From a virus: DNA of 21,070 nucleotides. The stretch is from the IMG/VR virus record IMGVR_UViG_3300036712_000037, positions 1 to 21,070 of that record; one strand, written 5' to 3'. The notes under the pieces were generated by a model, which was not told the DNA's origin, searched no databases, and was given only the letters and a program-made list of their open reading frames with translations. Positions 4,183 to 21,070 of this stretch are shown in pieces; positions within the stretch are counted from its first letter, which is position 1; the number at the start of each line of letters is the position of its first letter. Both the position numbers and the translations under genes were made by a program.

Positions 4183-5010
4183 ATGGCCATCAAGCGCAAG
4201 CCGGCGCCACGGAAGCGGAAGAAGCTCTCGTCGCGCAAGAAGCCCGCGGCCTTTTCCGTCAAACCGAAAAGTCGCAAGGGGGGTTACCAGAAGCTCCGTA
4301 ACCTGGGCTGCTTTGAGGAGATGAAAGCGAGGATGCTACGGGGCTGGCCCCTCAAGCAGCTGGCCCGGTTTATCCAGGACGACAACGGAGAGTTGGAGGA
4401 CATGCCGATCGGGGCTCTCTGTGGGACGCTGGCCAACTTCCGCAAGACACTCCCCCCTGGGGAGTTCGCGAACCCGCCAGGGGAGTGTCCCACTGTTGTG
4501 AAAGAACGTATGACGCCTCATCACGAGAGAGCGATTGAGCGGATGAAGGAGAGTCTTGATGAGGTGGAGGAGCTGGAGAAGCTCTTCCGGCTCCAGATGG
4601 AGCGCGTCAAAATCGACAACACGCACGAGAAAGATAACGAGAAGCTACTGCCAAGTATGACGCAGGAGATCCGGTTGGCGAAGGAGATCCTCGAGTCGAG
4701 CGCGCAGCTCAAGATGGACCTGGGCATCGAAAAGCGCCACCTCGGGAGTATCGAGGCCAGCACCCGAATCGTGGACGAGATCGGATCGAAGTACGGCACC
4801 GATGCCGTAGCAAAAGTCCTAGAGGATCCGAAGTCTGTTCACCGGGTGCGTGCGCTAGCAAACAAATTCCTGCTTACGAGCGGTAGTGGTGAGAACGTCG
4901 AAGAGCTTCTGCGCGCGAGCGAGCGTGCGCAGAACGGTAACGGCAAGGCCTCTAATGATATGCACTTCACCAGGACGGTGGCGGAGCCTACCTCGGAGGA
5001 TGAACCTTGA
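4183..5010 (+). CDS. Putative small terminase subunit (by position)
   Basis: A 275-residue protein directly upstream of, and overlapping by 4 nt, the large terminase gene. Residues 1-35 are extremely basic (repeated KRK and SRKK). Residues about 40-90 contain a helical stretch around RMLRGWPLKQLARFIQDD that could be a DNA-binding helix-turn-helix. Residues about 110-200 form a long charged helical or coiled-coil region, and the tail is disordered. Position, a basic DNA-binding-like N terminus and a coiled-coil oligomerisation region match the usual small terminase plan, in which a ring recognises phage DNA and hands it to the large subunit. There is no sequence motif that proves it. The ribosome binding site is weak (GGTAGG, 4175-4180). 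Confidence 0.6.
   Translation: MAIKRKPAPRKRKKLSSRKKPAAFSVKPKSRKGGYQKLRNLGCFEEMKARMLRGWPLKQLARFIQDDNGELEDMPIGALCGTLANFRKTLPPGEFANPPGECPTVVKERMTPHHERAIERMKESLDEVEELEKLFRLQMERVKIDNTHEKDNEKLLPSMTQEIRLAKEILESSAQLKMDLGIEKRHLGSIEASTRIVDEIGSKYGTDAVAKVLEDPKSVHRVRALANKFLLTSGSGENVEELLRASERAQNGNGKASNDMHFTRTVAEPTSEDEP
4995..5000 (+). promoter_or_regulatory. Ribosome binding site fixing the TTG start of the large terminase
   Basis: GGAGGA lies 6 nt before TTG at 5007. No in-frame ATG or GTG is near; the ATG at 5017 is in another frame. The TTG overlaps the previous TGA (TTGA), so the start is supported by both the strong site and the coupling. Confidence 0.7.
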
Positions 5011-7115
5011 TCGTCGATGAAGGAGGTCAGTACAAAAGCGTACTGACCAAAGAAGAGATCGAGTCCCGCCTCCAAGAAGATATCGAAAACCTCACCCCGG
5101 AGGAGCTACACGTTCTCCAGATCATCATCTCCGAGAAGCTCGGGGTGGCTGAGGCAGAACTCGAGGTCGGGTTCGAGGCCGGGGAGGGGCCGAAGCAACA
5201 CTCGGTACTCGACGTGCTAAACAACGCTGAGTACAAGCACAAGCCCGTCGACCTCGAGACGTTTGTGAAGGACCCCTACTACTTAGGAGAGACCTGCAAG
5301 AACATTTATCCGGCGGTCCTTGAGGCCCTTACTCACATCTTTAACGGTGGTTTCAGTGAGGTAATCCTTACAGGGTCAATTGGCTGGGGCAAGTCGTATT
5401 GCGCTTCAGTCGGGCTCTGTCGGATCCTCTACGAGATCTCTTGCATGAAAGACCCGCATGGGACATTCGGTCTAGAGAAGAATACAAATATTTCGATAGT
5501 GTGCTTGTCGGTTAGTGAGGAACTAGCCATCAAGGTGGCGTTCGAGTACGTCGCCTCCCGGATCGAGGTCAGTCCGTATTTCAAGGATCAGTTCCCGTAC
5601 AAGAAAAAGAAGAAGCAGGTCGAGTTCCCTGGAAGTGTGTGGCTCGCGGCGCGGTCCTCCAGCGACAACTCCGTGCTCGGCCTCAACGTCATCGCGGGAA
5701 TGCTCGACGAGACAAACTTTTTGGCGAAGCCTGTGAAATCGGTGAAGAACCGGCCCGGGCAGCCGATGTACGATCACGCGCAGTCCCTCTACGACGCGAT
5801 CATGCGCCGTATGAAGACGCGCTTCCAGCAGAGGGGGAAGCTCCCGGGCGTTCTGTTCCTGTCGTCATCGAAGCAGACAGATGATGACTTCACAGCGCGC
5901 AAGATCAACGAGTCGAAGCACGACAGCAGCATCTACGTGGCTGACTACGCGGTGTGGGAGGCGAAGCCGAAGGACTACGAGCACAGCAAGTGGTTCTATG
6001 TCCTGTGTGGGAGCGCGGCCGTGCGCTCCCGGATCCTGGAAGAGGACGAGGACATTGAGGAGTTGGAGGGGCAGCTGCCAGAGGGCGCTTGCGTTGTCCG
6101 AGTACCAGAGGAGTATCGGCCTGACTTCGAGAGCAACCTGGAAGGCTCCATTCGCGATCTTGCCGGGCGAGCGACCTCAGCGATCACGCCGTACGTCCAG
6201 CGCCGTGAGAAGATCCTGTCTTCCTTTCCTGAGCACGGAGATCGGAAGCACCCCTTCAGTGTGATGGTCTACGACATGTCGAAGCCGGGGGACTTCATCT
6301 GGCCGCTCCTGATTCGGGAGGTCGAGATTCGCTTACCCGGAGGCAAAAAGAAAAAGAAACTCCAACCGATCGTCAACCCGAAGGCGATGCGCCACGTTCA
6401 CATGGACCCATCGCTCAGCGGCGACTGCAGCGGCTTCACCATGTCCCACATCTGTGGCTGGAAGGACGTCTTGCGCCGGAACGATCTGGGTGAGCAGCAC
6501 ATCGAGCGCGCGCCGGTCTACTGGATCGATCTCATGCTCCAGATCATCCCGCCGATCGGTGGTGAGATCATCCTCGGGGACGTGCGCCGCTTGATATACG
6601 CCTTGTCCGCTCGCAACTTCATCATCGGGATGGTCACCCAGGACGCCTACCAGCACGGGGACAGTCTGCAGAAGCTGCGCGCGAAGGGCTACAAAGCGGA
6701 GCTACTCTCGGTCGACACCTCCATCGATCCCTACGACACGTTCAAGGTCGCTATGTACGAAGGCCGCGTATTGGGGTACTACTACCCGCCCATCATCAAT
6801 GAGCTACGGAAGCTCGAGAAGGACAACAAGCGGAACAAGGTGGACCACCCGCCCGGTGGCAGCAAGGACGTTTCTGACAGCGCGGCCGGATCGATCTTTA
6901 CCCTGTCCGAGACGAGCACCTCGATGCCCCTCCCCATCATGACCGGGGCGCAGTCTGTCGATTCTGTGCCTATTGCCGCTGGGCAGCCCTCAGTGGTGGA
7001 TAGCCAGGGGGTGCCTCTGGTGACCACTTCGACTGGGCTCCCTCCGTTTATGGTAGGGTCCATGTTTGACGACTGGGGCGGTTTTGGGGGAGGGTGGGAC
7101 CCCGGATCCCTATGA
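5007..7115 (+). CDS. terL: Terminase large subunit (packaging ATPase and nuclease)
   Basis: A 702-residue motor protein that pumps DNA into the prohead through the portal and cuts it. The ATPase part has a Walker A loop GSIGWGKS (residues 123-130), a Walker B segment ending MLDE (232-235) and a coupling motif LFLSSSK (284-289). The RNase H-like nuclease part shows HMDPSLSGDCSG (D467), a middle strand with VTQDAYQHGDS (D546), and DHPPGGSKDVSDSAAG (D621, D624), typical of phage large terminases. The last 60 residues are low in complexity and rich in Gly, Ser and Pro. It starts at TTG, chosen from the strong ribosome binding site. It lies between the putative small subunit and the portal. Confidence 0.95.
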   Translation: MIVDEGGQYKSVLTKEEIESRLQEDIENLTPEELHVLQIIISEKLGVAEAELEVGFEAGEGPKQHSVLDVLNNAEYKHKPVDLETFVKDPYYLGETCKNIYPAVLEALTHIFNGGFSEVILTGSIGWGKSYCASVGLCRILYEISCMKDPHGTFGLEKNTNISIVCLSVSEELAIKVAFEYVASRIEVSPYFKDQFPYKKKKKQVEFPGSVWLAARSSSDNSVLGLNVIAGMLDETNFLAKPVKSVKNRPGQPMYDHAQSLYDAIMRRMKTRFQQRGKLPGVLFLSSSKQTDDDFTARKINESKHDSSIYVADYAVWEAKPKDYEHSKWFYVLCGSAAVRSRILEEDEDIEELEGQLPEGACVVRVPEEYRPDFESNLEGSIRDLAGRATSAITPYVQRREKILSSFPEHGDRKHPFSVMVYDMSKPGDFIWPLLIREVEIRLPGGKKKKKLQPIVNPKAMRHVHMDPSLSGDCSGFTMSHICGWKDVLRRNDLGEQHIERAPVYWIDLMLQIIPPIGGEIILGDVRRLIYALSARNFIIGMVTQDAYQHGDSLQKLRAKGYKAELLSVDTSIDPYDTFKVAMYEGRVLGYYYPPIINELRKLEKDNKRNKVDHPPGGSKDVSDSAAGSIFTLSETSTSMPLPIMTGAQSVDSVPIAAGQPSVVDSQGVPLVTTSTGLPPFMVGSMFDDWGGFGGGWDPGSL

Positions 7116-11000: not shown

Positions 11001-11117
11001 ATGAACCCATGGGGCAAAAAGAGAAAGGTTGGCGGGCGCTTCAAGAAGCTGATGCTCGGACCTAAGACTCTCGAGTTCACGCCGTTCAAGAGCAGCCACT
11101 CGTGGAGGAAGTACTGA
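11001..11117 (+). CDS. Small basic protein upstream of the prohead protease, or frameshift extension
   Basis: A 38-residue very basic ORF (MNPWGKKRKVGGRFKKL at the start, SHSWRKY at the end) whose stop TGA shares one base with the protease ATG. It has no good ribosome binding site before its ATG, and the GGAGG at 10928-10932 is not followed by any usable start at normal spacing. The frame is open upstream through the A8 run at 10832, so it may instead be translated as the end of a frameshifted product. The 80 nt before it (10921-11000) hold nothing else I can identify. A small basic core or internal peptide is plausible beside a phage prohead protease. Confidence 0.45.
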   Translation: MNPWGKKRKVGGRFKKLMLGPKTLEFTPFKSSHSWRKY

Positions 11118-12640
11118 TGACTGTTGAGCTGCTCGTCGACTCCATGCCCTTCAAGGTGACTATGGTCGAGGCGAACGACAAGGGCGAGACCATAGTCAAG
11201 GGCCAGTTCGCTCTCTCGGATATCGCCACCGAGAACAAAAGACTCTACCGCCGCCCAATTTGGGAGCGGAACATCACCAGGCTTCGGCCAGCTATGGGAT
11301 CCAATCGGGTGTTCGGAGAACTCGATCACCCGTCGGACGGTCGGACGCAGCTACAGCGCTCGAGCCACATCGTGACCAATCTCGAGGTTCAGCCTGATGG
11401 GATGGTTACCGGTGAGGCGAAGATTCTCAACACCACGAACGGTCGTCAGCTCAAGGCGATCTTCGAGGGGGCTGGGCAGGTCGGTGTCAGCTCCCGGGGC
11501 TATGGTTCGACGCAGGTCAACGAGAAAGGCGAGCAGGTTGTTCAAGAGGACTACCGGCTCGTCACCTTCGACTTTGTCGCTGAGCCCGCATGTTCAACTT
11601 CCTACCCAGCAGTAGTTCGGGAAGACACCGAACCAGAAAAGGAGCCGGGAATGGCAATCGATTCCAAGAAGCAGGAGTCCACGAAAGAGAAGCCCCAGGA
11701 AGATACTCCAGAGGGCGGTGCGCCCAAGACGCTCACCCAGGAGGACGTTTCGGAGCTGGTGCTCAAGGTCATCGCGGAGAAGCGCGAAGAGATCCGGGAG
11801 GAAGAGAAGAGCAAGCTCCTCTCTGACCCGAACGTCGCCGCTGCCGCTTCGGTCCTCGAGGACATCAAGAAGGCACTCGGAGTGGTGTCCCTCCCGGACG
11901 ACGCCAAAACAGTTGTCAAGGAGCGGGACGCAGAGATCGAGCAGCTGAAGCGGGCGGTTGGCGAGCGCGACATGCAGATCGCTGACCTCGAGGAGAGTGT
12001 CGCTCAGCTGTCCGACGTCGCTCGTGAGGCGGGGTACAAGTTCTTCGTCGAGCGTGCCGTCTCTGGCCACCCCATGGCTGACACGATCCGAACCATGGTC
12101 GGCAATGTGCGTGGCTACGACAGCCCGCAGGCCATCCATGAGCGGATCGAAGAGGTCCTCTCTGAGCTGACCGAAGAGGCTGAGCGCCAAGAAGCAGCCA
12201 ACGCTCAGCGCGAGCGTGAGCGTCGGACCCTCTCGGAGGACGTGTCCAAGAAGGACGATCGCATTGCGCAGCTCGAAGAAGCCCTCGAAAAGTCCATCGA
12301 GCTGAACAAGGTCATGTCCGTTCAGCGCTATGCGGACCAACGGATGCAACGCCATCCGAAGGCCGACGACATTCGGGCGATCGTCGAATCTCGGGGGCCG
12401 AGGACGACGCAGGAGGTGGACAAGATCTTCGAGGAGTTCCAGCGTCCTCAGCTGGACACTGAGGACCTGGCGGCCGTGCGGTCGCGGGTCCGACGAATCA
12501 CCGCGGGTGGAACGGGCTCTTCCCCGCTCGAGGAGGAGACGGCGTCTCCTTCCGGGCAGAGGGCCCCGACCGCTCAAAACTACAACGGCCTTGGAGTTCC
12601 GCTCTCGGATCTTCGGGCATGGTCTGGTCTAGACAACTAG
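11117..12640 (+). CDS. Prohead protease (T4 gp21-like) fused to scaffold protein
   Basis: A 507-residue protein. The start is ATG 11117, set by GGAGG at 11104-11108; a GTG 15 nt earlier is less likely because the site lies inside it. Residues 1-170 form a T4-type prohead serine protease: ELDHPSDGRTQLQRSSHIV with catalytic-type H71, GVSSRGYGS with the serine at 125 or 126, and FDFVAEPA at 151-158. From about residue 170 the sequence becomes long charged helices and coiled coil (180-480), the character of a scaffold such as T4 gp22. The two activities are separate genes in T4 but joined here, as in lambda C/Nu3 and herpesvirus UL26. A strong internal start at M179 marks the junction. The capsid gene follows 12 nt later. 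Confidence 0.88.
   Translation: MTVELLVDSMPFKVTMVEANDKGETIVKGQFALSDIATENKRLYRRPIWERNITRLRPAMGSNRVFGELDHPSDGRTQLQRSSHIVTNLEVQPDGMVTGEAKILNTTNGRQLKAIFEGAGQVGVSSRGYGSTQVNEKGEQVVQEDYRLVTFDFVAEPACSTSYPAVVREDTEPEKEPGMAIDSKKQESTKEKPQEDTPEGGAPKTLTQEDVSELVLKVIAEKREEIREEEKSKLLSDPNVAAAASVLEDIKKALGVVSLPDDAKTVVKERDAEIEQLKRAVGERDMQIADLEESVAQLSDVAREAGYKFFVERAVSGHPMADTIRTMVGNVRGYDSPQAIHERIEEVLSELTEEAERQEAANAQRERERRTLSEDVSKKDDRIAQLEEALEKSIELNKVMSVQRYADQRMQRHPKADDIRAIVESRGPRTTQEVDKIFEEFQRPQLDTEDLAAVRSRVRRITAGGTGSSPLEEETASPSGQRAPTAQNYNGLGVPLSDLRAWSGLDN
11637..11644 (+). promoter_or_regulatory. Internal ribosome binding site for the nested scaffold start
   Basis: AAAAGGAG ends 6 nt before an in-frame ATG at 11651. 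It sits precisely between the protease domain and the coiled-coil scaffold, so its position makes functional sense. Confidence 0.6.
11651..12640 (+). CDS. Nested in-frame scaffold protein
   Basis: Initiation at ATG 11651 (M179 of the fusion) gives 329 residues beginning MAIDSKKQEST. It contains a disordered acidic linker, then alternating charged helices with coiled-coil character, a GHPMADTIRTM segment and a similar RHPKADDIRAI segment (perhaps a repeat), and a C-terminal tail ending LRAWSGLDN. Scaffolds fill the prohead and, in T4-like phages, are cut up by the prohead protease. A nested scaffold would supply many copies with few protease copies, as lambda Nu3 does. Support comes from the strong Shine-Dalgarno site and the domain junction. 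Confidence 0.55.
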   Translation: MAIDSKKQESTKEKPQEDTPEGGAPKTLTQEDVSELVLKVIAEKREEIREEEKSKLLSDPNVAAAASVLEDIKKALGVVSLPDDAKTVVKERDAEIEQLKRAVGERDMQIADLEESVAQLSDVAREAGYKFFVERAVSGHPMADTIRTMVGNVRGYDSPQAIHERIEEVLSELTEEAERQEAANAQRERERRTLSEDVSKKDDRIAQLEEALEKSIELNKVMSVQRYADQRMQRHPKADDIRAIVESRGPRTTQEVDKIFEEFQRPQLDTEDLAAVRSRVRRITAGGTGSSPLEEETASPSGQRAPTAQNYNGLGVPLSDLRAWSGLDN

Positions 12641-12652
12641 GAGGCATGCGCA

Positions 12653-14149
12653 ATGAGTGAGGCGCGAAGAATACTAGCGGAAGAAGGCCGGCGTTCCATT
12701 GCTGACGAGAGCTTCGTCAAGGTTCTCACAGAGAAGTGGGAAGGCTTTCTCGATGGGATGTCCGACATCAGCTACCACGACAACTATGTTCGTGGTTGCA
12801 CAGCGATGTTGATGGAGAATCAGCAGAACTATCTGGAGAACCTCAATGAGGAAATCCGGACGGTGAACGTGGGCTCGTTCACGAAGTTCATTTTCCCGGT
12901 TCTGCGTCGAGTCTTCCCCAACCTGATCGCGAACGAGATCGTGAGCGTTCAGCCGATGAGCGCTCCAGTAGGCGCCGTCTTTTTCTTGGACTACGTCTAT
13001 GGAACGACCAAGGGACCGACGACCGAAGGGGACGTCTTCCCGAGGGACTTCGACAAGGACTACTCGAGCGAGTTCATCAACGGCGAGATTCTCGCAACGG
13101 GCGACGCCGCGAAGTGGGGCGGTGTTGGTACGCCGCTGGACGCCACCTTGGCGTTCACCCCGGTTCGGCCGCTCGACACCACGCGTGGCTTCTCGGTCAT
13201 CATCCGTGATCTGACCTCGGCCGGCGTCGCGGCGCAGACCGCGACCGACAACGGCACCGGCGGGTTCACGGGCGATACGACCGCGGGGTCGATCAACTAC
13301 TCGAACGGGTCCATCACCGGGTTCTTGTTCACGGCGGCTCCGGCCATCGGGAACCAGATCAAGTGCTACTACTTCTACGACGGCGAGCTGAACTCGAAGA
13401 TCCCGCAGATCAACCTCGACGTGAAGAAGGCGCCGGTCGAGGCAAGGCCTCGACGCTTGAAGGCTCTCTGGTCCTCCGAGGCCAGCGAAGACCTGCGGGC
13501 GTTCCACGGCGTTGACGCCGAGGCGGAGATCGTCTCGGCGGTGGCGCAAGAGATCGCGCTCGAGATCGACCGCGAGATCGTGCAGAACCTCTTCGCGGTC
13601 TCGACGGGAACGGCCGACACGTTCGACCGGATCCCGCCGGCAGGTATCAGCGAGATCGACCACCTGCGGTCGATGATCACCAAGATCGCGACCGTCTCAA
13701 ACCTGATCCACAAGAAGAGCCTCCGTGCGCCCGCGAACTGGATCGTCACCAGCCCCGAGGTCTCGGCGCTGATGACCCAGCTCCAGACCCACGGCGACTT
13801 CCGTCCGTTGTGGACGCCCGGCATGGACACGCCGTATGGCCCGGTCGACATGATCCGACCAGGTGGTGCGACGCACGGTCAGTTCGGCATCTACAAGGTC
13901 GGAACGCTCTCCAACAAGTGGATCGTCTATGAGGATCCCTTCTTCACCCGCGACATGATGATGATCGGGCTGAAGGGGATGTCGTTCCTGGACGCGGGCT
14001 ACGTGTGGGCTCCATACATCCCGCTCCAGATCACGCCGACGTTCCTGGATCCTTCGGACTTCAGCTTCCGGAAGGGGATGAGGACTCGCTATGCCCAGAA
14101 GTTGCTCCGTCAGGAGTTCTATGGGCAGTGCCGCGTTCTCAACCTGTAA
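12653..14149 (+). CDS. Major capsid protein, T4 gp23-like
   Basis: A 498-residue capsid protein with an AGGAGG site 8 nt before ATG. Segments match the gp23 pattern: RRVFPNLIANEIVSVQPM (residues 85-102) then APVGAVFFLDYVYG, and later NLDVKKAPVEARPRRLKALW followed by EDLRAFHGVDAEAEI and EIALEIDREIV. The protein forms the hexamers of the head. Residues about 165-243 are a beta-rich insert, with GSINYSNGSITGFLF as its core, of a type that recurs in the tail sheath of this same window. The N terminus holds LAE at 8-10, fitting the (I/L)xE cleavage rule of T4 gp21, so a short propeptide is possible. Confidence 0.94.
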   Translation: MSEARRILAEEGRRSIADESFVKVLTEKWEGFLDGMSDISYHDNYVRGCTAMLMENQQNYLENLNEEIRTVNVGSFTKFIFPVLRRVFPNLIANEIVSVQPMSAPVGAVFFLDYVYGTTKGPTTEGDVFPRDFDKDYSSEFINGEILATGDAAKWGGVGTPLDATLAFTPVRPLDTTRGFSVIIRDLTSAGVAAQTATDNGTGGFTGDTTAGSINYSNGSITGFLFTAAPAIGNQIKCYYFYDGELNSKIPQINLDVKKAPVEARPRRLKALWSSEASEDLRAFHGVDAEAEIVSAVAQEIALEIDREIVQNLFAVSTGTADTFDRIPPAGISEIDHLRSMITKIATVSNLIHKKSLRAPANWIVTSPEVSALMTQLQTHGDFRPLWTPGMDTPYGPVDMIRPGGATHGQFGIYKVGTLSNKWIVYEDPFFTRDMMMIGLKGMSFLDAGYVWAPYIPLQITPTFLDPSDFSFRKGMRTRYAQKLLRQEFYGQCRVLNL

Positions 14150-19525: not shown

Positions 19526-21070
19526 ATGGCGGAGTATCTATCCGGCGGAGTATTCATCGAAGAGGTCCCTTCGCAAGTGCAAGTCGTCACGGCGGTCACC
19601 ACCAGCACGGTAGTGGCGGCGGGCTTCACTCCGCGGGGGACGGAGAACGACACGATCCTGGTAGGGTCCCCGGGGGAGTTCACCAACAAGTGCGGTGATC
19701 TGAACTCGAACACCTTCCTGGGGCTGTGCATGTTCGCCTTCTTCTCGAACGGAGGCACCAGGGCGTACATCATTCCGGTTCGACCGGAAGACGCGACCAC
19801 GGCGGATTGCAAAATCCAGAGCCAGACCACCGACCAGGAAATCGAGACCGGTGACGGCGTCACGGCGGCGTTCACGAAGGACTCGTCAACCACGCAGCTC
19901 AAGGTCAATAGCGGAGCAACTCCGATTGTCACCACCAGCTGCGCGATTGGTTGGCGTGGCCAGGAGTCCTCGGCGCTCACGACCACAGCTACGATGGCGC
20001 GGGATGGAACGACTCCGCTCGTAACGGTGGCAGGGCGTATCGCCTACGAGGGGATCATCGACCCGACGACGGTCCCAACGTTCTCCGAGAAGCACCACCG
20101 AGTGGTTCCCGGTACGGTCACGATCAATTTCGACGGCCACGCCATTGCCGTGGCTGGCACCACAGACGTTGCGACGGCGACGACGGCGGACGGTACGGTG
20201 ACCATCGATCACAGAAGTGGCCGGTTCTCGCTCTTGTCTGCGGATGCGATCGGGACGCCTGGGGCGGTGACGGCGGACTACACCCCGACCTCTGGTGATC
20301 AGGGCGACCGCGCGGTGGCGACGATCAATACTGGTGGCGGCGCAGACGATAAGGTCTACATGATCGTGGATAATGTCGGGGCTGCAGGCAACGCGTGGAC
20401 GTTCGAGGTGGTAGTTGGGACCGGGGTGTTGACGGCGGCGTTCAAACCGAACACGTCCAACCAGATCCTCATCACGCTCCCGCCCGCTGGTGACACCGCG
20501 TTGAATATCGCGGCTGCGGTTACACTGCTGACGGGAGTCACAGCGAGCATGTCCGGTTTGGGGACAGGGACTATCAGTGTAGCAGAGGGGCCGACGAGCT
20601 TTACTGGTGGCCGGGACGCGAACACCGAAGGGGTCTTCGAGATCACGGATACAGTTGGCGTCTATCCCGCTGGCACACTCAATACGGGTGTAGGGCTCAC
20701 CGGTCCAGGCACGATCGACTACACCACGGGCGCCTACAGCTTCACCACAGCTGCTGGTCTGACGATCAACACCGGTGTAGCGACTACAGGCTTCGTGACC
20801 AAGGGGTACACGGCTGTCCCGCACGTGCAGGCGCCGGTGAATATCGACTACCAGATCGAGGCCTGGGATCTCAATCCGACGTGGCGTGGCGAAACTGGCA
20901 ACGACTTGCGGGTTCAGTTGCGCGGCAATGCGGACTACTTCACGGCGGCTACCGGGCAGTACTCCAGGTTCGACATCAACATCCTCCTGGACACGCCGTT
21001 GGACCGGGGGACCTTCGTTTTGAAGGAGACGTGGGAGGAGCTGGACCTCAGCACTCCGACCTCGGCGAAG
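19526..21070 (+). CDS. Tail sheath protein, N-terminal 515 residues (cut by window end)
   Basis: The frame is open to the last base and ends on a codon boundary; the C terminus lies outside. The start follows GAGGAGG with a 5-nt spacer. The first 86 residues are typical of contractile tail sheaths: YLSGGVFIEEVPSQVQ, TSTVVAAGFTPRGT, a PGEF segment, and FFSNGGTRAYIIPVR. The sheath contracts to drive the tube through the host envelope. Residues about 105-430 are an inserted beta-rich region of at least three modules: about 170-253, 264-363 (with GAAGNAWTFEV and SFTGGRDAN) and 364-428 (with PGTIDYTTGAYSFTTAAG). Sheath sequence resumes near 445 with WRGETGNDLRVQL. The insert makes this sheath large for its class. 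Confidence 0.93.
   Translation, partial: MAEYLSGGVFIEEVPSQVQVVTAVTTSTVVAAGFTPRGTENDTILVGSPGEFTNKCGDLNSNTFLGLCMFAFFSNGGTRAYIIPVRPEDATTADCKIQSQTTDQEIETGDGVTAAFTKDSSTTQLKVNSGATPIVTTSCAIGWRGQESSALTTTATMARDGTTPLVTVAGRIAYEGIIDPTTVPTFSEKHHRVVPGTVTINFDGHAIAVAGTTDVATATTADGTVTIDHRSGRFSLLSADAIGTPGAVTADYTPTSGDQGDRAVATINTGGGADDKVYMIVDNVGAAGNAWTFEVVVGTGVLTAAFKPNTSNQILITLPPAGDTALNIAAAVTLLTGVTASMSGLGTGTISVAEGPTSFTGGRDANTEGVFEITDTVGVYPAGTLNTGVGLTGPGTIDYTTGAYSFTTAAGLTINTGVATTGFVTKGYTAVPHVQAPVNIDYQIEAWDLNPTWRGETGNDLRVQLRGNADYFTAATGQYSRFDINILLDTPLDRGTFVLKETWEELDLSTPTSAK

Follow-up and report, generated by a model that had tools for sequence, protein, structure and literature searches.

The window, by which we mean the whole 21,070-base stretch of DNA analysed, is a virus record whose structural genes follow a T4-like order: a terminase-like ORF, portal, prohead protease, major capsid protein, adaptor and other small genes, and finally the start of the tail sheath gene. 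The ORF in the terminase position (702 aa, 5007-7115) gave nothing beyond chance against Pfam and PHROGs. The prohead protease (11102-12640) has a Peptidase_S77 domain at residues 26-168 followed by ~340 charged, coiled-coil-like residues, and is possibly a protease-scaffold fusion. The major capsid protein (12653..14149, + strand; 498 aa) is of the gp23 type, matching Pfam Gp23 (PF07068) over residues 74-490 with an E-value of 1.7e-69 and the PHROG major head protein with an E-value of 1.1e-67. The tail sheath gene (19526..21070, + strand) leaves the window at residue 515 of a protein that, judging from its relatives, is expected to be ~830-1060 aa long. The N-terminus that remains matches solved sheaths (E 7e-10), and the full-length relatives score above the Pfam sheath cut-offs (PF04984 and PF17482) and match the PHROG tail sheath; in the relative that we call L025, those cut-offs are passed at residues ~592-826.

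A preliminary description of this DNA had pointed to a beta-rich module at 13145-13381 in the capsid gene. Those positions do correspond to capsid residues 165-243, and the strings quoted from them are present, but they cover only the larger part of a slightly bigger domain, residues ~148-245 (13094..13387, + strand), as delimited by the AlphaFold model and by a position that is kept in 40 aligned relatives. The related loci found in viral contigs numbered 67, and all of the full-length capsid relatives share a consensus that begins after residue ~148 as xATGDGxxxGGxGxxLxAxLAFxPVRPLxxxxGFSVxxxExxxxGxxxQ and continues directly as xATDNGxGGFTGxxxAGxINYSNGAxxxFxFTxAPAxGNxIKAxYYYDGE. The most recognizable portion can be written as the signature D[DN]GxGxxxGxxxxGx[IV][ND]YxxG (13247..13308, + strand), which matches the window at this one place and in none of 100 shuffled versions. 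The AlphaFold model of the capsid protein is weak overall (mean pLDDT 64.7, pTM 0.44), and it therefore does not predict how the module docks on the shell; the module is nonetheless its best-predicted part, with blocks at pLDDT 76-89. Within it, a beta domain is flanked by two long strands, residues 139-149 and 252-266, and the top Foldseek match of the whole model is the head protein of phage P1.

The same description held that this segment interrupts an otherwise gp23-like fold, a view that did not survive comparison with known capsids. The T4 gp23 sequence aligns to the window's capsid protein up to about residue 123 and resumes at about residue 242, which places the module where T4 has its insertion domain. 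We conclude that residues ~148-245 are the I-domain of a gp23-type capsid protein, in the regular I-domain slot: the gp23 family (the PF07068 match given above) is present on both sides of the segment, a folded domain (mostly at pLDDT 76-89) lies between the two strands that form the E-loop arms, and the module is related in sequence to a solved I-domain, that of P1 gp23 (PDB 9ukm). An HMM of the module found the P1 I-domain with an E-value of 2.3e-5 among 15,349 ORFs, and over the P1 genome gp23 was the sole match (E 7.6e-9). Read from the genome, the P1 I-domain runs VPIRKGRTNIYVNRIKSVVDNGSGSLL...SLNYNIGQIALSFSKAPDKGTEI; it resembles the window's module in its position in the capsid protein, its beta-rich character and the presence of the signature, whereas its sequence has otherwise diverged far. 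In the P1 structure, this beta-sheet-rich domain protrudes outward and makes stabilising contacts between adjacent subunits and capsomers (PMC12810830). The I domain of T4 gp23 and gp24 belongs to the same protein family and occupies the same position, set in the E loop and resting on the neighbouring subunit (PMC9958956), but by sequence no match to the signature was found in it. Four further cultured phages, SP-15 (Bacillus), LIS04 (Listeria), phiXF1 (Xanthomonas) and QdP_Psa3 (Pseudomonas), have gp23-type capsid proteins with a shorter form of the module at the same place, in which the spacing from DNGxG to GxINY equals that of the window's lineage. In SP-15, the annotated capsid gene (L076:14542-17059) consists of two pieces that are joined, and an endonuclease ORF lies in the gap. 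No module was found in the gp23-type phages immuto, Mel-JY01 and RM378. No phage record was retrieved by tblastn with the capsid module as the only query, and an alignment of the module gave only chance-level matches against PDB sequences.

The preliminary description had also proposed that the sheath carries the same module, citing two short strings at about residues 222-253 and 393-412. Searched singly with module HMMs, the window's own sheath gave no match, so the link between capsid and sheath requires a family profile. Neither a pattern scan of viral contigs with the single sheath sequence nor tblastn against cultured phages found a relative; the relatives were reached instead as neighbours of the capsid relatives. 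When the capsid-module profile was compared with the resulting alignment of the whole sheath family, it matched two regions, at L025 residues 445-522 (E 2.6e-8) and 270-329 (E 9.9e-8). In L025 the modules occupy residues ~185-335 and 432-515, outside the conserved core, as opposed to the core domains at ~592-826.

Three copies can be distinguished in the sheath family, the third of which lies past the end of the window. Module 1 comprises residues 148-260 of the window's sheath (19967..20305, + strand). Module 2, mapped from L025, comprises residues ~363-448 (20612..20869, + strand) and is split in the window by an insertion of ~100 residues (~266-362; 20321..20611, + strand), which shows as an alignment gap relative to L025, the nearest relative lacking it. 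The insertion is modelled mostly at pLDDT < 50, and its sequence is not that of the shared module; it looks like an inserted module too, though not of the same kind. The window's own copy of module 2 is poorly modelled. Using hhalign, with 100 column shuffles of each sheath region and the sheath core regions as controls, we found that the capsid-module profile matched the family region of module 2 with an E-value of 2.1e-11 and a score of 60.7 (shuffles reached at most 20.4, and the reversed control 7.9) and module 3 with an E-value of 4.2e-10 and a score of 54.6 (shuffle maximum 16.3); both sheath cores scored as background. This profile-profile comparison bears out the proposal of one beta-rich module common to capsid and sheath, including the string at 393-412.

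The case for module 1 is less direct. Against the capsid profile alone, the region of the 222-253 string gave an E-value of 0.017 and a score of 18.1, which is not significant given that shuffles reached 18.2. Built from 97 segments, none of them from close relatives of the window's capsid, a broad profile of the module did match residues 185-265, with an E-value of 1.3e-7 and a score of 38.7 (shuffle maximum 13.9), and the same profile matched module 2 at 2.4e-15, module 3 at 2.7e-16 and the capsid module at 1.6e-14, with three core controls at background. The structural model agrees: among matches drawn from VIA lists, residues 148-260 superpose on P1 capsid gp23 residues 197-305 with a Z-score of 8.2 (rmsd 3.2 over 98 residues), which makes P1 gp23 the best match outside sheaths, with only a sheath core scoring higher; the capsid of Staphylococcus phage S6 follows at Z 6.0. 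The claim for this string thus failed with the capsid profile and stood with the broad profile and the structure, and it is on these last two that we place both strings in the module family.

Searched over related contigs, the broad module HMM (E < 1e-3) picked up 66 of the 69 ORFs for the capsid and 34 of the 41 for the sheath; all the other ORFs in the set of 8,153 and all reversed decoys went unmatched. These counts bear on the possibility that capsid and sheath hold unrelated beta domains with a common hairpin signature but with neither descent nor fold in common. Such convergence could account for the fact that the strongest match spans only 50-75 columns, rich in G, T and D, and that module 1 is not reached by the capsid profile alone. 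We nevertheless consider it improbable: the shuffled, reversed and core controls lie far below the true matches, no other ORF and no decoy is found, and the best non-sheath structural match of module 1 is a capsid I-domain.

The pairing extends throughout the window's lineage. In 15 larger records (73-200 kb) that we searched whole, the capsid copy was found in all 15 and one or two sheath copies in all 13 that reach the sheath; the two with no sheath copy, G003 and G004, both stop shortly past the capsid gene. Only two extra matches were seen in these records, both weak, in ORFs of 1,120 and 380 aa. The former (G010:C1:5913-6041) is a weaker copy of the module in a protein that is neither the capsid nor, by its position, the sheath. 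Five cultured phages have the module (P1, SP-15, LIS04, phiXF1 and QdP_Psa3), each of them in the capsid only: gp23 was the sole match in P1, and no sheath copy was detected at an E-value of 0.01 in the other four. The sheath copies thus appear to be specific to the window's lineage, which is most simply explained by supposing that the module was in the capsid first and that this lineage later acquired it in the sheath as well.

Among viral contigs at large, the module is widespread. An unbiased scan with the signature, written as a degenerate DNA pattern, matched at least 119 stretches of viral contigs, where the number expected by chance is essentially nil. Among the matches listed, which represent 118 distinct ORFs, 50 are gp23-type capsid proteins, as judged by a profile with the module removed, and the others fall into several unrelated groups, including PHROG 6128, tail proteins, a neck-like group and weak gp15-like and baseplate-hub matches. 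PHROG 6128 itself matches the capsid module with an E-value of 1.2e-4, although the whole proteins are otherwise unrelated. DUF2460, likewise otherwise unrelated as a whole protein, matches the module region of a related capsid with an E-value of 0.0012, below the cut-off: its gathering score is 30.4 bits, as compared with 18.8 bits for that capsid and 11.9 bits for the window's sheath. The module is thus a common building block of virion proteins, in agreement with the earlier suspicion that the module itself is not new. One other carrier, an 869-aa virion protein (L122:4291-6897), also matches the Pfam E1_FCCH model at three places (E 4.6e-37), which lie outside the module.

That the module has been portable seems right over long times, given this spread, but not over short ones. 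Modules from the capsid and sheath of the same record are 33.7 and 31.2% identical in our two comparisons, and those from different records 33.8 and 30.6%. In a tree built from 68-69 columns, which resolves few forks and gives neither a date nor a direction of transfer, the modules mostly cluster by host protein, with 13 label changes where groups with shuffled labels need far more. Since identity is no higher within a record than between records, and the modules group by host protein, we regard the copies as old ones that have stayed put. The opposite scenario, in which the capsid and sheath genes within a phage have lately swapped the module or still do so, might seem favoured by their arrangement, as the two genes lie ~7-11 kb apart or less in most of the related records, but we give it almost no credence: the identity comparison and the grouping in the tree both speak against it.

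Taking these results together, we favour the reading, with a probability of roughly 0.7, that the module is a surface domain with a stabilising role, which is ancestral to the capsid protein and occurs also in the sheath of the window's lineage. The capsid segment is the beta-rich I-domain of an HK97-fold protein of the gp23 type, set into the E-loop; by analogy with the P1 and T4 structures, it would stand outside the shell and rest on neighbouring subunits, acting both as a built-in clamp and as a bump on the surface. In the sheath, two or three copies of the same domain family lie between the first segments of the conserved core and beyond them. Extra domains of other sheaths have been described as located away from the tube, and a role in sheath stability or in adhesion has been suggested for them (PMC9230969). 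The beta-sandwich (Ig-like) domains of large-phage sheaths are similar to our modules in being extra and outside the conserved core (PMC9230969). The sheath copies most likely do an equivalent job on the outer face of the sheath, where they would pack against neighbouring subunits and make the structure bulkier and more stable. The capsid and sheath copies are both old and evolve separately. On this basis, we infer that both sets of copies stabilise the virion.

Capsid and sheath together form the exterior of the virion, and the preliminary description had raised the possibility of a portable domain for binding. A domain on head and tail that bound carbohydrate, the cell surface or environmental particles would make the whole virion weakly sticky. 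The adhesion role proposed for extra Ig-like sheath domains (PMC9230969) is compatible with that idea, as is the weak Ig-like character of sheath residues 153-260, which match T-cell receptor variable domains at Z ~5 with an rmsd of 3.6-4.8; this may reflect no more than a common arrangement. Still, none of the known binding domains was matched at its curated cut-off, and the same was true of the Ig-type families, the best being Big_8 at an E-value of 0.033 in one of 12 modules. The most conserved positions of the module are the turn glycines, the aspartates and the tyrosine of the hairpin signature, which look like structural residues rather than a variable binding face. We therefore consider a binding module unlikely, if the least unlikely of the alternatives to a stabilising domain. 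It is also conceivable, though doubtful, that in this lineage the sharing serves a purpose: head and tail may be coated or joined by one partner that uses the domain on both, be it a decoration protein, a glycan or the domain itself.

Add-on beta domains are already known in both phage capsids and phage sheaths. What appears to be new is the tie in sequence between a capsid I-domain and the sheath, limited to these two proteins across the lineage; in the open-access literature that we searched, we found no paper that connects a sheath domain by sequence to a capsid I-domain. In one phage lineage, both of the proteins that form the exterior of the head and of the tail carry the domain. A sequence profile is now available for this widespread but unnamed virion domain, tied to the solved I-domain of the P1 capsid, and with it annotators could detect I-domains and sheath add-ons from sequence. 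The role of the sheath add-on domains thereby becomes testable alongside that of the better-understood domain of the capsid.
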